Assembly (NCBI RefSeq): GCF_003369835.1
Contig: NZ_QPMJ01000002.1
Location: 558,001 to 622,000 of the forward strand
Source of the DNA: Halorussus rarus
Lineage (GTDB): Archaea; Halobacteriota; Halobacteria; Halobacteriales; Haladaptataceae
Length of the DNA stretch: 64,000 bases
Direction of reading: 5' to 3'
The notes below the pieces were generated by a model. It ran no database searches, was not told the DNA's origin, and was given only the letters and a program-made list of their open reading frames with translations. Every line of letters begins with the position of its first letter. Within the stretch, counting starts at the first letter, position 1. A program made the position numbers and the translations under genes. This document shows positions 46,253 to 53,463 of this stretch, piece by piece.

Positions 46253-46331
46253 ACCGGGCGTAAGGTCGGTCTAACGCCGTCTCTTTCTGCAGCTTTTCGT
46301 TCGACGGCCGGAGGGATTACGTGAACCGATG

Positions 46332-46352
46332 CCATAGCCTCTCCGGCTATGG
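46332..46352. terminator. 8-bp perfect hairpin after nrdJ
   Basis: CCATAGCC, loop TCTCC, GGCTATGG lies 80 bases after the nrdJ stop and 80 bases before the next start. No poly-T follows. It may mark the 3' end of the nrdJ transcript or be an operator for the following gene. No coding gene is visible in 46253-46431. Confidence 0.35.
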
Positions 46353-46431
46353 GTCCGAATGGAGGGGCCGGGACGTTCGAGGGGACCGTCCGGCGGGTGA
46401 CGACCGAATCACCGGCAGGGGAGCCGCGCCG

Positions 46432-47688
46432 ATGCGGGGGCTGAGGAGCCCCGGCGTCCGGGGCGTCGCGTTCGTGGCGGCCGGGCTGGTCGTCCTTGTC
46501 GCGGCGTTCGGCGCGAGCTGGGCGTTCGCGCCCGACACCGACACCGTCTCGGACGCCGTCGACCCGGAGGACGCGCTGCTGGTCGGGGTCCAGGGGCCGG
46601 GTCCGAACGGCAACGTGACCGCGCTCGGGGGCCACGGAGACCTGCGGTGGGCAATCGGCAACATCATCAGCTACCAGAGCGTCCAGCGGCTCGACAACGG
46701 GTCGGTGCTGGCGTCGTTCGCCGCGGGCGACTACCGGAACTGCGGCCCCTACGAGCCGCCCTGCAAGCGGACCGGCGTCCGCATCATCGAGCACGACCCG
46801 TTCGTCCACGTCGCCTGGGAGTGGAGCTACCCGGTCCGGACCCGCGAGGACAGCGAGGTCCACGACGCCGAGATGCTGCCGTCGGGCAACGTCCTGATCG
46901 CCGACATGGAGTACGAGAGCATCTTCGTGCTGGACCCCGAGACCCGCGAGCGCGTCTGGACGTGGAACGCCAGCGACTACTACGAGGGCCCGGCCGACCC
47001 CACGACCGCCGACTGGCTCCACCTCAACGACGTCGACCGCATCGGGGAGGGCCGCTACCTCGTCTCCATCCGGAACAGGAACCAGCTCCTCGTCGTCGAG
47101 CGCGGAGCGGGCGTCGTCGAGGTGGTCAACGAGGACGGCGACCCGTCCGTGCTGAACAGGCAGCACAACCCCCACTGGCTCGGCGACGGCGCGGTCCTGG
47201 TCGCCGACTCCGAGAACCACCGCGCGGTCGAGCTCCACCGCGACGACGCCACCGGCGAGTGGGCGGTGGCGTGGTCGATCGGCGAGGTCGGGGGGATTCC
47301 GCTCGACTGGCCGCGGGACGCCGACCGGCTGCCCAACGGCAACACCCTCATCACGGACAGCCGGAACAACCGGGTGGTCGAGGTGGACCGGAACGGGAGC
47401 CTGATTGCGAGCTACACCGTCCCGTCGCTGCCCTACGAGGCCGACCGCGAGCCCTACGGCGAACCGTCGGCCGGGTCGGTGTCGGCCTACGGGAACGGGA
47501 GCCTGGCCGAGGTCGGTGCGTCCGACGAGGAGGTTCCGGTGCTCTCGACGCTGCTCGCGGGCGCCCGGCACGTCGTCGCGCTCCCGTACTGGGTGTCGGA
47601 GCTCCACCTCGTGGTGGTGGTCGTCGCCGCCGCGCTCTGGCTCCGGGGCGGCTACCTGCTGGCCCGCGCCGGATTAGGGAAACAGTGA
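46432..47688 (+). CDS. membrane-anchored arylsulfotransferase (ASST)-like β-propeller protein
   Basis: The start ATG 46432 gives MRGLRSPGVRGVAFVAAGLV, an N-terminal helix; upstream in-frame codons add unlikely sequence. The 418-residue protein has a propeller of repeated blades on the outer side: VHDAEMLPSGNVLIADMEYE, DWLHLNDVDRIGEGRYLVSI, NRQHNPHWLGDGAVLVADSE, NHRAVELH and DADRLPNGNTLITDSRNNRV. These N-x-L/T-I-D blade motifs occur in ASST-type and NHL/SMP-30-like proteins. A second helix near residue 385 (LHLVVVVVAAALWLRGGYLL) closes it. A catalytic His of ASST cannot be fixed, so enzymatic activity is unproven. Its stop overlaps the next start (TGATG). Confidence 0.7.
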   Translation: MRGLRSPGVRGVAFVAAGLVVLVAAFGASWAFAPDTDTVSDAVDPEDALLVGVQGPGPNGNVTALGGHGDLRWAIGNIISYQSVQRLDNGSVLASFAAGDYRNCGPYEPPCKRTGVRIIEHDPFVHVAWEWSYPVRTREDSEVHDAEMLPSGNVLIADMEYESIFVLDPETRERVWTWNASDYYEGPADPTTADWLHLNDVDRIGEGRYLVSIRNRNQLLVVERGAGVVEVVNEDGDPSVLNRQHNPHWLGDGAVLVADSENHRAVELHRDDATGEWAVAWSIGEVGGIPLDWPRDADRLPNGNTLITDSRNNRVVEVDRNGSLIASYTVPSLPYEADREPYGEPSAGSVSAYGNGSLAEVGASDEEVPVLSTLLAGARHVVALPYWVSELHLVVVVVAAALWLRGGYLLARAGLGKQ

Positions 47689-47870: not shown

Positions 47871-48158
47871 CTACTTCATCGTGACCCAGGTCAGGAACCC
47901 GACCGCGACCAGCTGGAGCGTCCGGAGCACGAGCACGGCCTGCTGGACGGTCGGATCGCCCGAGTAGAGCATCTTCATGCTGAAGAAGAAGTAGAGCGCG
48001 ACCACGTTCTCGACGAGCATGACGCCGCCGAAGGCGACGAGGCCGAGCAGCAGCGACGAGCGGAACTTCCGGTAGTTGCGGACCCACACGGTCGTGAGCA
48101 GACCGAGCAGGAGGATGTTCACGACCGCGATTCCGCTTGCGAGTTGTATCGTGCTCAT
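47871..48158 (-). CDS. 95-residue three-helix membrane protein paired with an HTH gene
   Basis: MSTIQLASGIAVVNILLLGL opens helix 1, followed by VWVRNYRKFRSSLLLGLVAF and two more helices (MLVENVVALYFFF and VLRTLQLVAVGFLTWVTM). The basic linker NYRKFRS corresponds to the YRRNG/YRRHG linker of the small membrane proteins at 19573-20206. The start is 12 bases after the HTH gene stop, so they form a two-gene operon. The function is unknown; it is the second HTH/small-membrane-protein module in the window. Confidence 0.7.
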   Translation of the reverse strand: MSTIQLASGIAVVNILLLGLLTTVWVRNYRKFRSSLLLGLVAFGGVMLVENVVALYFFFSMKMLYSGDPTVQQAVLVLRTLQLVAVGFLTWVTMK

Positions 48159-48170
48159 GCTATGTCCCTC

Positions 48171-48446
48171 TCATTCGATGTGCTCCGTGATCTCCTCGAA
48201 CGCCTCGCGGTGCTGCTCGAATCGGTCGGTGAGGAAGTAGAGCTTCCCGTACTCGTTGTCGCCGGGCTCGACCACGCCGTGGTCCTCCAGCACGTCGAGG
48301 TGGTGGCGGACCGTCTTGTACCGGACGTCGAGCTCGTCGGCGAGCTGGTTGGCGTTGCGTGGGCGCTCGGAAAGCGCGCGGATGAGCCGCGCGCGGTTCT
48401 CCCCGCCGCGGGTCGCCGTGAGCAGGTACCAGAGCGCCTTGTCCAT
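48171..48446 (-). CDS. ArsR-type winged-helix regulator
   Basis: This 91-residue protein is a single winged helix: ENRARLIRALSERPRNANQL (helices 1-2), ADELDVRYKTVRHHLDVLED (recognition helix) and HGVVEPGDNEYGKLYFLTDR (wing). It lacks visible metal or thiol sensor residues. A TATA-like box (ctataagg, minus strand, ~48475-48482) lies ~33 bases before the ATG at 48446. It is co-transcribed with the 95-residue membrane protein. The neighbouring molybdoenzyme operon ends 38 bases upstream on the same strand, so read-through is possible. Confidence 0.8.
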   Translation of the reverse strand: MDKALWYLLTATRGGENRARLIRALSERPRNANQLADELDVRYKTVRHHLDVLEDHGVVEPGDNEYGKLYFLTDRFEQHREAFEEITEHIE

Positions 48447-48483: not shown

Positions 48484-50064
48484 CTACGGCTCGATTCGCC
48501 GCGATACCCAGCCGGTCGGCCCGCTCGGGAAGGCGTCGCGCTGTTTCTTGGGCTGGAGGTTCCCCTCGCCGTCGGTCGCCCGGACGACGACCTGATGGGG
48601 GTCGGAAGCTTCGTAGGTGTACTCCCACTGGCGCCACGCGTCCTCGGCGGACTGCAGTCGGGGACCGGACTCGGTCCCTGACGCGCCGCCTGCCGAGTCC
48701 TTCCGTCCGGCGCCGGCCGGGAGCGGGTCCGAGAGGGTCGCCTCGTCCCACGAGTCGCCGCCGTCGGTCGAAATCTCGACTGTCCGTATCCCTCGGGTGC
48801 CGGCGTAGGCGTGGCCGCCCACCTGTATCGACCCGTCGTCGCGGTGGTTGACGGCGTGGAGCTTCGCGACGGTGTTGACCGGGCCGATGCCGTGCCAGCC
48901 GCGCCGTTCCCAGTAGCCATCCATCTCCTCCTCGAGCACCTCGATCTCGGTGAGCCACTTGACGTTGATCTCGCCCCAGTGGCCCGGAATCAGCGCGCGC
49001 ACCGGGTAGCCGTGACCGCGGGGGAGTGGCCGGCCGTTCATCTCGAAGGCCAGGAAGCCGTTCCGGAGGGCCGACAGCGGGAACTCCTCGAAGTAGTCGT
49101 CCGCGGCCCGCAGCATCACGCAGCAGTTGCCAGAGGCGTCGATACCAGCCGACTCGAGCAGGTCCATCACGGGCACGCCGGTCCAGAGCGCAGTGTCCAT
49201 CTTCTTGCCGTTCAGCCCCTCGCCGACGCACCGGAGGGTGACGAACCGGTGCTCGACCGAGTCGGACATACCGGCGATCTGCTCGAAGTCGAACTCGGTC
49301 TCCTCCTCGACCGCGCCGGTCACGCCGAGCGTCCACTCCTCGCGGTCGACCGTCGGGTCGACGCTGTTGATGTCGACCTGGTAGAACTGCTCGCTCACGA
49401 GCGGTTCGATGCCCTCGACGTCGAGCGAGCGCGACGCCGCCTCGCCGAGCAGCGAGTCGACGTCGGCCGCGACCTCGCCGTCGTCGGCCGGGGCGGGCAC
49501 CTCGCCTCCCTTGCCGGAGCCGAGGACCGCGCCGACGCCGCCGACCGCGAACGCGCCCGCCATCGCCCGGAGGACGCGCCGCCGGGCGACGGTCGGTGCG
49601 GCGGCGTCACCGCGGCTCGGGCCGAGGCCGACCGAGGCGATGCCGACGACGAGCCCCGCGCCCGCGCCGGCCGCGAGCGCGGAGGTCGCTGCCCCGACCA
49701 GCGCCACCGCAGCGGCGACGCAGCCGACGCCGGCGACCGGCCACGCCGGGACCGCGAACCGGTCTGCCAGCGCGGCCCCGGCCGCGGCCGTCGCCGCGAA
49801 CAGCCCGACCGCGAGCGCGAGCGCCAGCAGGAAGCCGAGCTGGTGGCCGAGGTCGCCGAGCGTCTGTATCGACCACGTGATTACCGCGTCGGGGGTCGAC
49901 GCGACGACGAGGTCGGCGACCGGTGCGGCGACGAACGCCGGCGTCCGACCCACCGCCGCGTACGACCCGCCGACCGCCGCGACGCCGGCCGCGACCGCGA
50001 CGACGCCGGACGAGAGCAGGCTCCGCACGCGGGACGCGTCGCCCGAACCAGGGTCGCCGGTCAC
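48484..50064 (-). CDS. membrane-anchored sulfite-oxidase-fold molybdoenzyme (MsrP/YedY-like)
   Basis: This 526-residue protein starts at GTG 50064, overlapping the upstream stop (GTGA). The N-terminal ~150 residues hold four hydrophobic segments (ALALAVGLFAATAAAGAALA and others) and end with an RRR motif (ARRRVLRAMAGAFAVGGVGA, residues 160-179) resembling an internal Tat-like signal. The enzyme domain follows: DREEWTLGVTGAVEEETEFD, then VTLRCVGEGLNGKKMDTALW with the molybdenum-ligand Cys279, and LPRGHGYPVRALIPGHWGEI, the cofactor-contacting stretch. The C-terminal Ig-like dimer domain has RTVEISTDGGDSWDEATLSD. It may be a methionine sulfoxide reductase, sulfite oxidase or related enzyme. Confidence 0.85.
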   Translation of the reverse strand: MTGDPGSGDASRVRSLLSSGVVAVAAGVAAVGGSYAAVGRTPAFVAAPVADLVVASTPDAVITWSIQTLGDLGHQLGFLLALALAVGLFAATAAAGAALADRFAVPAWPVAGVGCVAAAVALVGAATSALAAGAGAGLVVGIASVGLGPSRGDAAAPTVARRRVLRAMAGAFAVGGVGAVLGSGKGGEVPAPADDGEVAADVDSLLGEAASRSLDVEGIEPLVSEQFYQVDINSVDPTVDREEWTLGVTGAVEEETEFDFEQIAGMSDSVEHRFVTLRCVGEGLNGKKMDTALWTGVPVMDLLESAGIDASGNCCVMLRAADDYFEEFPLSALRNGFLAFEMNGRPLPRGHGYPVRALIPGHWGEINVKWLTEIEVLEEEMDGYWERRGWHGIGPVNTVAKLHAVNHRDDGSIQVGGHAYAGTRGIRTVEISTDGGDSWDEATLSDPLPAGAGRKDSAGGASGTESGPRLQSAEDAWRQWEYTYEASDPHQVVVRATDGEGNLQPKKQRDAFPSGPTGWVSRRIEP

Positions 50065-50717
50065 GGTCGCCTCCGCGCGACGAACAGCGCCGCCGCGAGC
50101 GCGACGACCGCCGCGCCGACGCCGAACCCGGGCACGAACGCGCTCGACCCGTCGTCGGGCGTGGCCGTGCCGTCGTTCATCGAGTCGTCCATGCCCTGCT
50201 CGGTCGTCTCGTCCATCGAGCCGTCGCCCATCTCGCTTGTGGTGTCGTTCATCGAGTCACCGCTCATCGACCCGTCGGCCATCGACCCGGACGCGCAGGT
50301 GGTCGTCTCGGAGGCCATCGAGTCGGTCGTCCCGTTCATCGATTCGTCGCCCATCATCTCGGTGGTCTCCGCCATCGAGTCGTTCCCCATGGATTCGTTC
50401 TCCATCGACTCGGTCGTTTCGCTCATCGACTCGTTGCCCATCATCTCGCCCGACTCGTTGTTCATCGAGTCGTCCGCCATGGACTCGGTAGTCTCGTTCG
50501 CCATCTCGCCCATCGACTCGTTCCCCGTGGACTCGTTGGCCATCGAGTCGTCGCCCATCATCTGGGTCGTCTCGTTCATCATCTGCGCGGTCGTCTCGTC
50601 GCCCATCGTTCCGTCACTGGTCGTCGTGGCGCACTCGGTCGTCGTCTGGGCCGCCACCGGAGCGACGCCGGCCGTCAGCACGACCAGCGCCACCGCGATC
50701 GGAGTTGCGAAACGCAT
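50061..50717 (-). CDS. methionine-rich surface protein with PGF-CTERM-type anchor
   Basis: The start is ATG 50717, with a TATA box (ccttttaggg, minus strand, 50738-50747) ~26 bases upstream. The 218-residue protein begins with a Sec-type signal (MRFATPIAVALVVLTAGVAP, VAAQ). About 170 residues of low-complexity sequence follow, built from short Met-containing units such as MMGDESM, NESMGEM and ETTESM; I count 27 Met in this mature part. It also has two Cys. It closes FVPGFGVGAAVVALAAALFV with ARRRP, a PGF-CTERM-type signal for archaeosortase. Similar Met-rich proteins bind copper or act as oxidation sinks. It is the first gene of the operon with the molybdoenzyme, whose start overlaps its stop. 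Confidence 0.8.
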   Translation of the reverse strand: MRFATPIAVALVVLTAGVAPVAAQTTTECATTTSDGTMGDETTAQMMNETTQMMGDDSMANESTGNESMGEMANETTESMADDSMNNESGEMMGNESMSETTESMENESMGNDSMAETTEMMGDESMNGTTDSMASETTTCASGSMADGSMSGDSMNDTTSEMGDGSMDETTEQGMDDSMNDGTATPDDGSSAFVPGFGVGAAVVALAAALFVARRRP

Positions 50718-50865
50718 GGTTCTACCGGCGACAGCCACCCTAAAAGGAATTTTTCGGACTCTCGCCCACTTCGTGAGGAGTCGGGTGAGACTCTCTTCCA
50801 ATTTCGTTCCGAGTGCGACCGCCGCGGGCGGTCGGCGTCGTATCGGTGCGGCACTCACCGCGTCG

Positions 50866-51513
50866 CTACCGCCGGGCGGACGCGGCCCGGTAGGCCGGCC
50901 CGGCGAGTAGCGCCACCGCCACCGCGCCCGCCGCGGCGATGAGTTCCCACCCGACGGCGCTCAGGCCCGCGGTCGAGAGCCGGTCGAGCGACCCGCCGGC
51001 CAGGACGGCCGCAACGGTCCACGGCACCTCGCCGACCGCGGTCCCGGCGACGAACGCGCCGGTCGAGACGCCAGAGAGGCCAGCCGCGGCCGAGACGGGG
51101 TCGGAGGGCGCGGGCGCCAGTCGGGAGGCAACCATCCCGCGGAGGTCGCCGGTTGCGGCGAAGAACCGCTCGCCGGAGTCACCGAGGCGCCCGACCAGCC
51201 CCGACCCCGCACCGACGTAGCGCGCGGCGAGGAAGGGGAGGAGCGCGCTCCCGGTCGTCCCCGCGAGCGCGACGGGAAAGCCGACGACCGGGCCGTAAGC
51301 GTACCCCGCCAGGATGGCGACCAGCGTGGTGGGCCACGCGAACAGCGGGCGGACGAGATAGACGCCGAACAGGAGCGCGCCGAAGGCGACCGGCCGGTCT
51401 GCGAGCCCCCGGGCGGTCCCGAGGAGGTACTCCGGCCCGGCGAGGAGGCTCGCGGCCGCGACGGCGGCGAGGAGGGCGAGGCCGACGGCCTGCCGGCGGA
51501 CGAACGCGGTCAT
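50866..51513 (-). CDS. TVP38/TMEM64 (VTT/DedA-like) membrane protein
   Basis: This 215-residue protein starts at ATG 51513 (MTAFVRRQAVGLALLAAVAA). A box cagttacctg lies ~28 bases upstream on this strand. Six helices are visible. The central VTT region reads RPLFAWPTTLVAILAGYAYG and GTTGSALLPFLAARYVGAGS, followed by VASRLAPAPSDPVSAAAGLS and AVGEVPWTVAAVL. This family includes phospholipid scramblase-type and small-solute transporters in bacteria and eukaryotes. It lies 148 bases upstream of the Met-rich gene and seems to have its own promoter. Confidence 0.75.
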   Translation of the reverse strand: MTAFVRRQAVGLALLAAVAAASLLAGPEYLLGTARGLADRPVAFGALLFGVYLVRPLFAWPTTLVAILAGYAYGPVVGFPVALAGTTGSALLPFLAARYVGAGSGLVGRLGDSGERFFAATGDLRGMVASRLAPAPSDPVSAAAGLSGVSTGAFVAGTAVGEVPWTVAAVLAGGSLDRLSTAGLSAVGWELIAAAGAVAVALLAGPAYRAASARR

Positions 51514-51616
51514 CGCCGGGGGTTTCGGTCCGGCAGGTAACTGCTTTTTGGGTCGCGACGGCGGTCCGGGCCGCTTCGCGCAAGGTTTAATCCGGCTCGC
51601 GGGCGAATCGGGAGTG

Positions 51617-52078
51617 ATGGCCGACGACGAGGACCCGGCGAACGGGGGTCGCGCCGGCGACTCCGGAGGTGGGCGCTCCGCTGCCAGGGCGGGGGGCGAC
51701 CGCGAGGGGGCCGACACCGGCTCGGACCCCGACCCCGTCGAGCTGGGCGTCGAACTCCTCTCGAAGCTCGAACACCCGGAGCTGTCGGTCGCCGAGGCGG
51801 TCGACCGGATCGAGACCGTCACCACCCATCCCGCGACCACCCGGAAGATCCTCGACGAGGCCGAGAAGCGCGGCGTCATCGAGCGCGAGGACGGCATCGT
51901 GAAGACGACCGGCGGGGGCTACGTCAGCTTTCAGAGCGAGGTCGTCACGAAGGAGGGCGAGTTCTCGTGTCGGCGCTGCGGCGCGAGCATCTCGACGGGC
52001 TACTTCATAAAACTCGACGCCGGCGAACACGGCGCGTTCGGTCCCGAGTGCATCCGGAAGGTCACGGGGCGGGACTGA
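51617..52078 (+). CDS. winged-helix protein with zinc-binding tail (DUF5830-like)
   Basis: The start ATG 51617 (MADDEDPANGGRAGDSGGGR) follows a gtttaat box ~30 bases upstream. The 153-residue protein begins with ~40 disordered residues. Then comes a helical/HTH part (ELGVELLSKLEHPELSVAEA, TVTTHPATTRKILDEAEKRG, VIEREDGIVKTT) and a zinc site formed by CRRCGASISTGYFI and FGPECIRKV. I recall this domain pair as a haloarchaea-specific family (DUF5830). A transcription-associated role is plausible but unproven. It is monocistronic and diverges from the TVP38 gene. Confidence 0.7.
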   Translation: MADDEDPANGGRAGDSGGGRSAARAGGDREGADTGSDPDPVELGVELLSKLEHPELSVAEAVDRIETVTTHPATTRKILDEAEKRGVIEREDGIVKTTGGGYVSFQSEVVTKEGEFSCRRCGASISTGYFIKLDAGEHGAFGPECIRKVTGRD

Positions 52079-52134: not shown

Positions 52135-53463
52135 TCAGCGACCGCGGCTCAGTTCCTCGATGAGCTGTTCGAGCGTGCGCTGCTGCTCGGCCAGCAGCTC
52201 GTTCTGGCGCTCGACCGCCTCGGTCAGCGCGGCGAGCTGCTCGTCGGTGTCGTCGGTCTCGACCGACGAGCTCGCGGGCTCGAAGCCCGAGTCGGCGAAG
52301 CCGCTCGACGAGGCCGACTTGTCGGTCGCGCTCCCAGCGTCCTCTCCGGCGTCGACGGACCCGGCGTCTCCGGCGGTCAGGGGCGCCTCGTCCGCGTCGG
52401 CGGACCGCTCGGCGTCGTCGCCCGCCGACGTGTCGGCGGGTTCGTCATCGGTCGCCGCAGCATCGGCCGACGCGTCGTCAGTCGCAGCGGCGTCGCTCGC
52501 GCCGGCTTCGGTCGTCGCGACGCTCGTCGAGTTCGTCCCGTCGTTCGCGGTCTCCTCGGTCGCACCCGCGGTCGCGGCGGCGGCCTGCGCCGTCGCATCG
52601 CCCGACTCGGCGGCGGCCGACTGTTCGCCGGCGGTCGAGCGCTCGGCGTCGCCGCGCTCGCCGGTGGTCACGCTGGTCTCCTCCTCGATGATGGCGCCGT
52701 CCTCGTCGAGCTCCGGCGGGTTGGCGTCGATGGGGTCGACGCCGCCGCCGGCCAGCGGGTCGTTCTCGTTGGCGGGCTCGGTCGCCTCGTCGGGGTCGCG
52801 CTCGGCCTCGGCGTGGTCCTCGGGGTCGGCGTGCTGGCGGGCGAACTCCTCGTAGGAACTCAGGCCGTGGTGGTCGAGCAGCGCGCGCTCGATGCGTTCG
52901 CGGACCTCGCGGGTCTGGTCGCTCGGGGTCTTGATGCGCTGTGGCCGGCCGTCGCTCTCGATGATGATCTGGGAGGAGACGCTCCCCTCCTCGACGTCGA
53001 GGGCGGTCACGTCGTCGAAGTGGAACTCCTCGTAGTCCTCGTCCCAGACCGCGGCGCCGACGTGCTTGACGACGCGGTCGCTGGTGATGACCAGCGTGAG
53101 CTCGCTGAACTGGTAGGTCTGCTTGACCGTCTCGTCGGGGCCGGTCACGCCGGCGGCGTTGAGCACGCCCGCCAGCACGGGGTGGAGCGCCTCGTACAGC
53201 CGGTTGCTCGGTACCTTGAACTTCGCCTCGCCGTCGATGCCGTAGTCGAGCTCGACCGCCGACTTGCGGCGCCCCTCCGAGATCTCGATGCGTTCGGCCT
53301 CGTGGGGGTACTCCTCGACCGACTCGTCGCTCAGCAGCCCGTCGGCGTGGTAGATGAGCGTCCGGGTCCGGGTGACGTAGAGGCCGTCCTCGCTGCCGAG
53401 CGAGACGTGGGCCGCGACCTGTTCGCCGTCGAGCTGGGACTGCACGATTCCGGGAACGTCCAT
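52135..53463 (-). CDS. haloarchaeal protein with PH-like N-terminal part, long acidic linker and C-terminal coiled coil
   Basis: This 442-residue protein starts MDVPGIVQSQLDGEQVAAHV. Residues 1-190 are two β-rich modules, each with a 'what if this is a bacterial PH' pattern (YVTRTRTLIYHADGLLSDES, then LVITSDRVVKHVGAAVWDED and FDDVTALDVEEGSVSSQIII). Residues ~215-395 are disordered, rich in Ala, Asp, Thr and Ser. The last ~35 residues form a coiled coil (LAALTEAVERQNELLAEQQR, TLEQLIEELSR). The composition of the linker is extreme, with long Ala/Asp/Thr/Glu runs. I do not recognise an enzyme; a scaffold role is likely. It is monocistronic between the DUF5830-like gene and tRNA-Met. Confidence 0.65.
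   Translation of the reverse strand: MDVPGIVQSQLDGEQVAAHVSLGSEDGLYVTRTRTLIYHADGLLSDESVEEYPHEAERIEISEGRRKSAVELDYGIDGEAKFKVPSNRLYEALHPVLAGVLNAAGVTGPDETVKQTYQFSELTLVITSDRVVKHVGAAVWDEDYEEFHFDDVTALDVEEGSVSSQIIIESDGRPQRIKTPSDQTREVRERIERALLDHHGLSSYEEFARQHADPEDHAEAERDPDEATEPANENDPLAGGGVDPIDANPPELDEDGAIIEEETSVTTGERGDAERSTAGEQSAAAESGDATAQAAAATAGATEETANDGTNSTSVATTEAGASDAAATDDASADAAATDDEPADTSAGDDAERSADADEAPLTAGDAGSVDAGEDAGSATDKSASSSGFADSGFEPASSSVETDDTDEQLAALTEAVERQNELLAEQQRTLEQLIEELSRGR

Follow-up and report, generated by a model that had tools for sequence, protein, structure and literature searches.

The operon considered here raises the question of whether haloarchaea, like certain bacteria, protect the outside of the cell with methionines that trap oxidants and are then restored by a molybdoenzyme. 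In the window (the whole 64-kb stretch of Halorussus rarus DNA analyzed), the gene for a methionine-rich secreted protein overlaps that for a membrane-bound molybdoenzyme (Table 1), and the original prediction, made from the sequence alone, likened the pair to MrpX and YedY. The MrpX-YedYZ system of perchlorate reducers has been described as a methionine cycle in the periplasm directed against hypochlorite (PMC4623255). In Brucella, the hypochlorite sink BcrX, which belongs to the MXKDX proteins, shares its transcript with a homologue of MsrQP; this bcrXQP operon is induced by HOCl and adds to HOCl resistance (PMC8315932).

Table 1. Features of the Operon and Its Promoter, in Window Coordinates
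Feature	Position	Strand	Basis
Promoter element of 24 nt, conserved (consensus CGGAGTTYGAAAAAYCCCTTTTA; window sequence GAGAGTCCGAAAAATTCCTTTTAG), with TATA-like TTTTA at its 3′ end	50740..50763	-	
Secreted Met-rich protein of PGF-CTERM type, 218 aa; candidate methionine sink	50061..50717	-	sequence, composition, profile matches
N-terminal signal peptide, Sec-type, residues 1–23	50649..50717	-	sequence; boundary inferred
Met-rich repeat region, residues 38–180, 27 Met, commonest spacing 5	50178..50606	-	
PGF-CTERM sorting/anchoring motif, residues 192–217	50067..50144	-	TIGR04126 and PF18204, both over cut-off
SUOX-fold molybdoenzyme with membrane anchor, 526 aa; its GTG start overlaps the Met-rich gene stop	48484..50064	-	profiles, predicted structure, fold matches
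N-terminal helical membrane bundle, residues 8–144, no conserved haem-ligand His	49633..50043	-	
Twin-arginine motif RR161-162 and fifth, presumably Tat-dependent helix, residues 156–185	49510..49599	-	topology as in PMC5449189
Oxidoreductase molybdopterin-binding domain PF00174, residues 237–385, Mo ligand C279 in invariant RCV	48910..49356	-	
Mo-co dimerization domain PF03404, residues 403–507	48544..48858	-	
ArsR-like winged-helix protein, 91 aa, encoded ~38 nt after the enzyme gene; probably part of the operon, candidate regulator	48171..48446	-	
Hydrophobic membrane protein, 95 aa, no known family; probable last operon gene	47871..48158	-	

The Met-Rich Protein and Its Period-Five Repeat

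A Sec-type signal, 27 Met among the 171 mature residues (24–194, with 19 Asp, 22 Glu, and 54 Ser plus Thr), and a C-terminus that passes both the TIGR04126 (28.9 bits, cut-off 24.5) and the PF18204 (19.7 bits, cut-off 18.8) profiles bear out the description of the first gene product as a secreted PGF-CTERM protein with 27 Met in about 170 mature residues. The protein also has ten N-x-S/T sequons. No second acidic Met-rich frame of this kind was found in the window, where the only comparable Met counts (7 in 45 residues) occur in an 811-residue frame and in one basic frame. The predicted overlap with the enzyme gene is real: the TGA stop shares four nucleotides with the GTG start (GTGA, 50064–50061), and most Halorussus relatives have the identical overlap.

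The methionines had been described as forming MGDESM-like units; they do lie in short units, but the true unit is a pentapeptide, M-x-D/N-D/E-S/T. Among 37 partners of the enzyme pooled, whose units include MDDGS, MGNET, and MTDDS, Met-Met gaps of exactly five residues make up 43% of the total versus 8% in shuffled sequences, while a spacing of two is nearly absent (0.2%) and a spacing of three is depleted (2.7%); five is also the commonest spacing in the window's protein. Against the MXKDX model TIGR02953 (cut-off 41 bits), one relative (L138) scored above the cut-off at 47.7 bits and a second (L113) below it at 39.0 bits; the remaining relatives tested gave 18.3 bits, 14.9 bits, or no match, and the window's protein gave none. 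Because these sequences are of low complexity, a match to this model is taken to reflect likeness of the repeat and not descent. The window's protein shares with MXKDX/MrpX-type proteins that it is exported, Met-rich, and built of period-five repeats, and the haloarchaeal repeat may represent the MXKDX period with lysine exchanged for acidic residues, as would be expected in halophiles.

Recurrent Pairing with the Enzyme across Haloarchaea

The enzyme clade is spread widely through the Halobacteriales. Inspection of the upstream gene at ~190 loci, reduced to 156 haloarchaeal enzymes after removal of duplicates, identified a recognized partner immediately upstream and in the same orientation for 42 enzymes, a count that is slightly low since at least one more partner (L207) was missed by the filter, and no recognized adjoining partner for the other 114. 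The pairing, whose conservation in haloarchaeal genomes had been proposed as a check, is far more frequent than expected by chance, and its recurrence, including in Halorussus relatives, rules out a peculiarity of this genome. Of the 42 partners, 26 are surface proteins that end in a helix, mostly of the PGF-CTERM type. The others are lipoproteins, of which 5 are short, 5 contain a Spondin_N-like domain (a match just under the cut-off, 23.3 versus 24), and 6 contain DUF7482. Altogether the partners represent four or five mutually unrelated architectures. In those spondin and DUF7482 partners examined at full length, a Met-containing linker joins the lipobox to the domain. No other short Met-rich genes were flagged elsewhere in the fetched flanks.

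Mapped onto the enzyme tree, the presence of a partner requires at least 21 changes, of which 16 follow necessarily from well-supported branches, and a five-state label requires 23, with gains and losses being indistinguishable in these counts. Within Halorussus, every protein related to the Met-rich one at E < 1e-12 is encoded next to the enzyme, four species have the enzyme without the Met-rich protein, and the two genomes that lack the enzyme also lack the Met-rich protein. The four-nucleotide overlap is present in many partner operons, and the repeats differ freely in length and sequence between species. These observations support the Met-rich protein and the molybdoenzyme as a conserved functional unit. 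From the proposed MrpX-YedY-like logic, what stands is this unit and the likeness in repeat period, export, and gene linkage; the assignment of the enzyme to MsrP does not.

The Enzyme Is Distinct from MsrP and from Sulfite Oxidase

The enzyme scores 42 bits as a whole protein, and 46 bits for its core, against the MsrP model PRK05363 (cut-off 207 bits), compared with 95, 90, and 76 bits against the sulfite-oxidase-type models SorA, SoxC, and SorT, for which the cut-offs are 600, 420, and 570 bits. The AlphaFold model (mean pLDDT 88.8) has its best PDB matches among sulfite oxidases (Z 28–29 over about 290–300 residues) and superimposes less well on Escherichia coli MsrP (Z 16–18 over 196–199 residues); nitrate reductases are also among the enzymes of this fold. 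When MsrP, sulfite-oxidase-like, and actinobacterial proteins are included in the tree, the haloarchaeal enzymes form a clade of their own (support 96/95), with MsrP set off from it by a branch of 3.05; a grouping of the haloarchaeal with the actinobacterial enzymes was neither recovered nor rejected (AU p 0.36). The sulfite-oxidase-type dimerization domain PF03404 (41.4 bits, cut-off 22.7) had escaped the original prediction.

The molybdenum ligand was correctly placed in the RCV motif: R278-C279-V280 is invariant in 192 sequences, and RCV is also found in E. coli MsrP. The substrate-binding residues of sulfite oxidase are established. In columns matched solely by aligning the sequences to E. 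coli MsrP and to canonical sulfite-oxidase-like proteins of haloarchaea, the arginine of the sulfite oxidase RNH motif is replaced by Asp231 in 185 of the 192 sequences, the CSGNGR loop is shortened with loss of its arginine, and the catalytic tyrosine is replaced by the invariant Trp390. Separate enzymes with the canonical sulfite-oxidase motif are present in the genus (L031–L033). In these computations the predicted active site is not a sulfite-oxidase site.

Taken as membership, the label MsrP/YedY-like fails on the score, the extra dimerization domain, the position outside the MsrP clade, the closer fold match to sulfite oxidases, and the missing MsrQ partner; RCV is the one MsrP feature found. 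Clustering with sulfite oxidases had been named in advance as evidence against the proposal; fold and HMM scores do lie nearer to sulfite oxidases, whereas the replaced arginine and tyrosine and scores far below the curated cut-offs argue against assignment to them. The enzyme is thereby predicted to be neither an MsrP nor a sulfite oxidase.

The N-terminal bundle consists of four Sec helices, followed by the twin-arginine motif (RR161-162, invariant in 192 sequences), the fifth helix, and the MoCo domain. This topology is already known as that of the Sco3746-type polytopic MoCo proteins (Tooke et al., 2017; PMC5449189), for which a dual Sec/Tat architecture is described; the authors list a Haloprofundus homologue and predict that the helices bear haem ligands. 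The haloarchaeal clade matches the type in the order of its segments but lacks the conserved transmembrane histidines for two b haems, and it has Met-rich partners, of which the passages of that paper considered here make no mention. No histidine is conserved in the membrane helices: 97 of 193 enzymes have none there, and the sole position at which histidine is frequent has His in 32% and Gln in 39%. The original prediction of four extra N-terminal helices was right, with the Tat helix in addition, and so was its failure to see MsrQ nearby, since no MsrQ-type domain (PF01794) is present anywhere in the genome. Its suggestion that the helices replace MsrQ was not borne out, because the topology is of the Sco3746 type without haem histidines; an MsrQ-type haem in these helices is ruled out. 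Among the conserved neighbors, no haem protein, MsrQ, or other electron carrier was recognized.

A Dedicated Promoter Element and Two Downstream Genes

The Met-rich gene was predicted to have its own promoter with a TATA box 26 bases upstream. The TATA-like TTTTA indeed lies 24–28 nt upstream of the ATG, and it forms the 3′ end of a larger element conserved across lineages, which mostly precedes the first start codon by 46–51 nt. With a threshold of 14 bits, the element occurs in 36 of 42 partner operons and before 49 of 113 partnerless enzymes, compared with 7 occurrences per 1.77 million strand-bases of flanking sequence; the flanks and a genome search served as background. A model trained only on partnerless enzymes recovered 36 of the 42 held-out partner promoters and none of 806 random windows at 10 bits, and with the full model none of 278 control genes reached 12 bits. 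At ≥12 bits, these random windows and control genes exclude a merely generic promoter. The 24-mer core occurs once in this genome with up to three mismatches allowed. A loose core (one mismatch) also matches elsewhere, for example at an apparent eIF2-beta gene, implying an overlap between its GAAAA...TTTTA portion and the basal BRE/TATA signal. The core of the element reads AGTTYGAAAAAY. Two of the flank matches precede separately located spondin-like genes, in Haloprofundus and Halomarina, which indicates a regulon; the proteins encoded by these two genes have no Met repeats.

The genes following the enzyme, typically separated by gaps of 38–50 nt, encode the winged-helix protein and then a member of a short membrane protein family (median 98 residues). 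The winged-helix gene is a neighbor in 20 of 22 Met-rich operons versus 23 of 57 others (Fisher p = 4e-5, a value inflated, as are all neighbor p-values here, by shared ancestry), and the membrane-protein gene in 21 of 22 versus 24 of 57. The winged-helix protein gives weak matches to metalloregulator models and has no cysteine.

Proposed Function

The best reading is that the pair operates on the MrpX-YedY principle but with an enzyme of another subfamily, as a haloarchaeal extracytoplasmic oxidant-defense module in which a methionine sink would be recharged by the co-encoded molybdoenzyme; we place its probability at roughly 55%. The Met-rich protein, exported by Sec and anchored at the surface (by PGF-CTERM here, by a lipid anchor or C-terminal helix in relatives), would sacrifice its period-five methionines to hypohalous or other two-electron oxidants, yielding Met sulfoxides that the co-translated, Tat-exported, membrane-anchored enzyme would reduce back with electrons from a donor other than an MsrQ-type haem protein. 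Expression would proceed from the dedicated promoter, perhaps via the downstream winged-helix and membrane proteins. We favor the methionine sink because the pairing recurs with distinct architectures, the two genes are present and absent together in Halorussus, the methionines have period five with likeness to MXKDX, the promoter element is shared, an MsrP-like RCV is combined with replaced sulfite-oxidase residues, and comparable fasciclin/ECF loci exist in bacteria. Counted against it are the 114 partnerless enzymes of 156, the element-bearing spondin proteins without Met repeats, the fold and HMM scores nearer to sulfite oxidases, the lack of a recognized electron carrier among conserved neighbors, and Streptomyces fasciclin linkers with 0–2 Met. 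A literature search found no expression or biochemical data on haloarchaeal members, and the gene was not identifiable in the data reported for haloarchaeal transcriptomes (Ag, denitrification, H2O2).

Like MrpX with YedYZ in Azospira suillum and BcrXQP in Brucella, the haloarchaeal pair combines an exported Met pentapeptide-repeat protein with an adjacent SUOX-fold molybdoenzyme, a Met period of five, and dedicated regulation. In contrast to those systems, its enzyme belongs to another SUOX subfamily with a dimerization domain, a five-helix anchor, and no MsrQ; its repeat has acidic residues in place of lysine; its partner is surface- or lipid-anchored; and an archaeal promoter element takes the place of an ECF sigma factor. 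No annotated MXKDX neighbor was present at the plasmid-borne MsrP loci of Azospirillum and Azotobacter.

Alternatively, the enzyme might reduce or oxidize some different substrate outside the cytoplasm, such as an S- or N-oxide, or might repair many envelope proteins, with the Met-rich protein as a co-regulated passive shield or oxidation sensor. The absence of a Met-rich neighbor from most enzymes, the promoter element at spondin proteins without Met repeats, and the occurrence of both sulfite oxidases and nitrate reductases within the same fold are consistent with such a role. However, Met repeats on different protein families are repeatedly tied to this one enzyme clade, and many of the operons have the four-nucleotide overlap, so that we regard it as unlikely.

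Met-rich extracytoplasmic proteins in other systems bind copper, and the usual Cu(I) motifs are MXM and MXXM. The acidic Met-rich protein could in the same manner bind Cu(I) or Ag(I) at the surface, with the molybdoenzyme linked to it via shared metal or redox stress; the weak metalloregulator matches of the downstream ArsR-like protein point in this direction, as do a Mycobacteroides relative of the enzyme encoded near a Met-rich cupredoxin and a Rhodococcus relative near a metal P-type ATPase. The dominance of spacing five over the rare spacings of two and three is unlike MXM and MXXM, the winged-helix protein has no cysteine, and no copper transporter or chaperone was recognized among the conserved haloarchaeal neighbors, which together make a metal-binding role rather improbable.

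It is very improbable that the enzyme is a membrane-bound sulfite dehydrogenase and the acidic Met-rich protein a functionally unrelated spacer or surface glycoprotein. The enzyme does share the fold (Z about 28) and PF03404 with sulfite oxidase, SorA, and SorT, and it scores higher against SorA, SoxC, and SorT than against MsrP. Unlike those enzymes it has a membrane anchor and lacks the sulfite-binding arginine, the arginine loop, and the catalytic tyrosine; every score is far under its cut-off, and other, separate enzymes of the genus carry the canonical motif. Low-complexity drift of an unconstrained acidic surface protein that lies upstream by chance, to which the free variation in repeat length and sequence might point, is already disfavored and scarcely credible given the multiple occurrences with unrelated anchors, the period-five methionines, the conserved overlap and promoter, and the co-presence and co-absence with the enzyme in Halorussus.

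Returning to the methionine sink, its confirmation would tell what a widespread and functionally uncharacterized family of membrane molybdoenzymes does, and would extend the principle of a Met sink served by a Met-sulfoxide reductase to archaea, with a different enzyme and electron supply. For genetic work, the system would offer a handle in its single promoter element, its operon of four genes, and the natural relatives that have or lack the Met repeats. A broader and more tentative proposal is that haloarchaea and actinobacteria, the latter with fasciclin partners, may possess a molybdenum Met-sulfoxide reductase class in its own right, one that differs from MsrP in subfamily, needs no MsrQ, and works with Met-repeat surface proteins that can replace one another, expressed from a dedicated promoter, which would amount to a convergent, cross-domain rechargeable oxidant shield. 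Plasmid-borne relatives of the enzyme in Arthrobacter, Rhodococcus, and Streptomyces adjoin fasciclin lipoproteins, several of them together with ECF sigma/anti-sigma genes, and methionines are present in the fasciclin linkers of Arthrobacter and Rhodococcus. These loci resemble the haloarchaeal operons in the four-helix anchor, the SUOX domain, the secreted partner, and, in some cases, the linker methionines, and differ from them in having fasciclin in place of spondin, DUF7482, or pure repeats, and in forming a separate clade of the tree.

Genes Flanking the Met-Rich/Enzyme Operon

The gene on the 3′ side that is convergent with the Met-rich/enzyme operon encodes an arylsulfotransferase-like (ASST) membrane protein, beyond which lies a ribonucleotide reductase-like ORF. 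Relatives of the latter adjoin the enzyme gene at the equivalent position in 31 of the 79 named loci, implying that the block is syntenic across haloarchaea. Upstream of the pair, the TVP38/VTT-like ORF also precedes the enzyme gene in 34 of the 79 named loci, often without an intervening Met-rich gene, and relatives of the 442-residue protein lie upstream in about 32 of the 79.

Features neighboring the operon or located elsewhere
Feature	Position	Strand	Remarks
Adenosylcobalamin-type ribonucleotide reductase-like ORF, 1070 aa	43040–46252	+	Identity assigned by eye
ASST-like membrane protein	46321–47688	+	Domain match to PF14269
TVP38/VTT-type membrane protein-like ORF	50866–51897	−	Resemblance judged by eye
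442-aa protein	52135–53463	−	Conserved N-terminal domain, long low-complexity tail
SUOX-fold protein, 198 aa	L001, 1399–1995		CVTGWS motif; same genome as window
Spondin-like gene under promoter element, L157	about +2407 from enzyme start	−	
Spondin-like gene under promoter element, L185	about +3039 from enzyme start	−	

At eleven other enzyme loci (L050, L053, L056, L060, L064–L066, L083, L092, L101, and L122) a divergent gene, judged by eye to be phytoene/squalene synthase-like, is present, hinting at a photo-oxidative context for the enzyme.

Related Proteins and Further Genes under the Promoter Element

In six actinobacterial loci (L218, L219, L225–L227, and L229), the enzyme relatives are adjoined by fasciclin lipoproteins, with ECF sigma/anti-sigma genes also present at several of them; this is a recurrent module. 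The second SUOX-fold protein, encoded at locus L001, has no evident export signal, and its nearest HMM is MsrP (59.5 bits, below the cut-off).

The conserved promoter element also occurs apart from the enzyme operon, preceding genes for spondin-like Tat-exported proteins in the haloarchaeal loci L157 and L185. A close version, AGTTTGGAAAACCGATTT, is found at position 1500 of L268, from another Halorussus genome, at the gene for a Tat-exported halocyanin-like protein, which may be an electron carrier.
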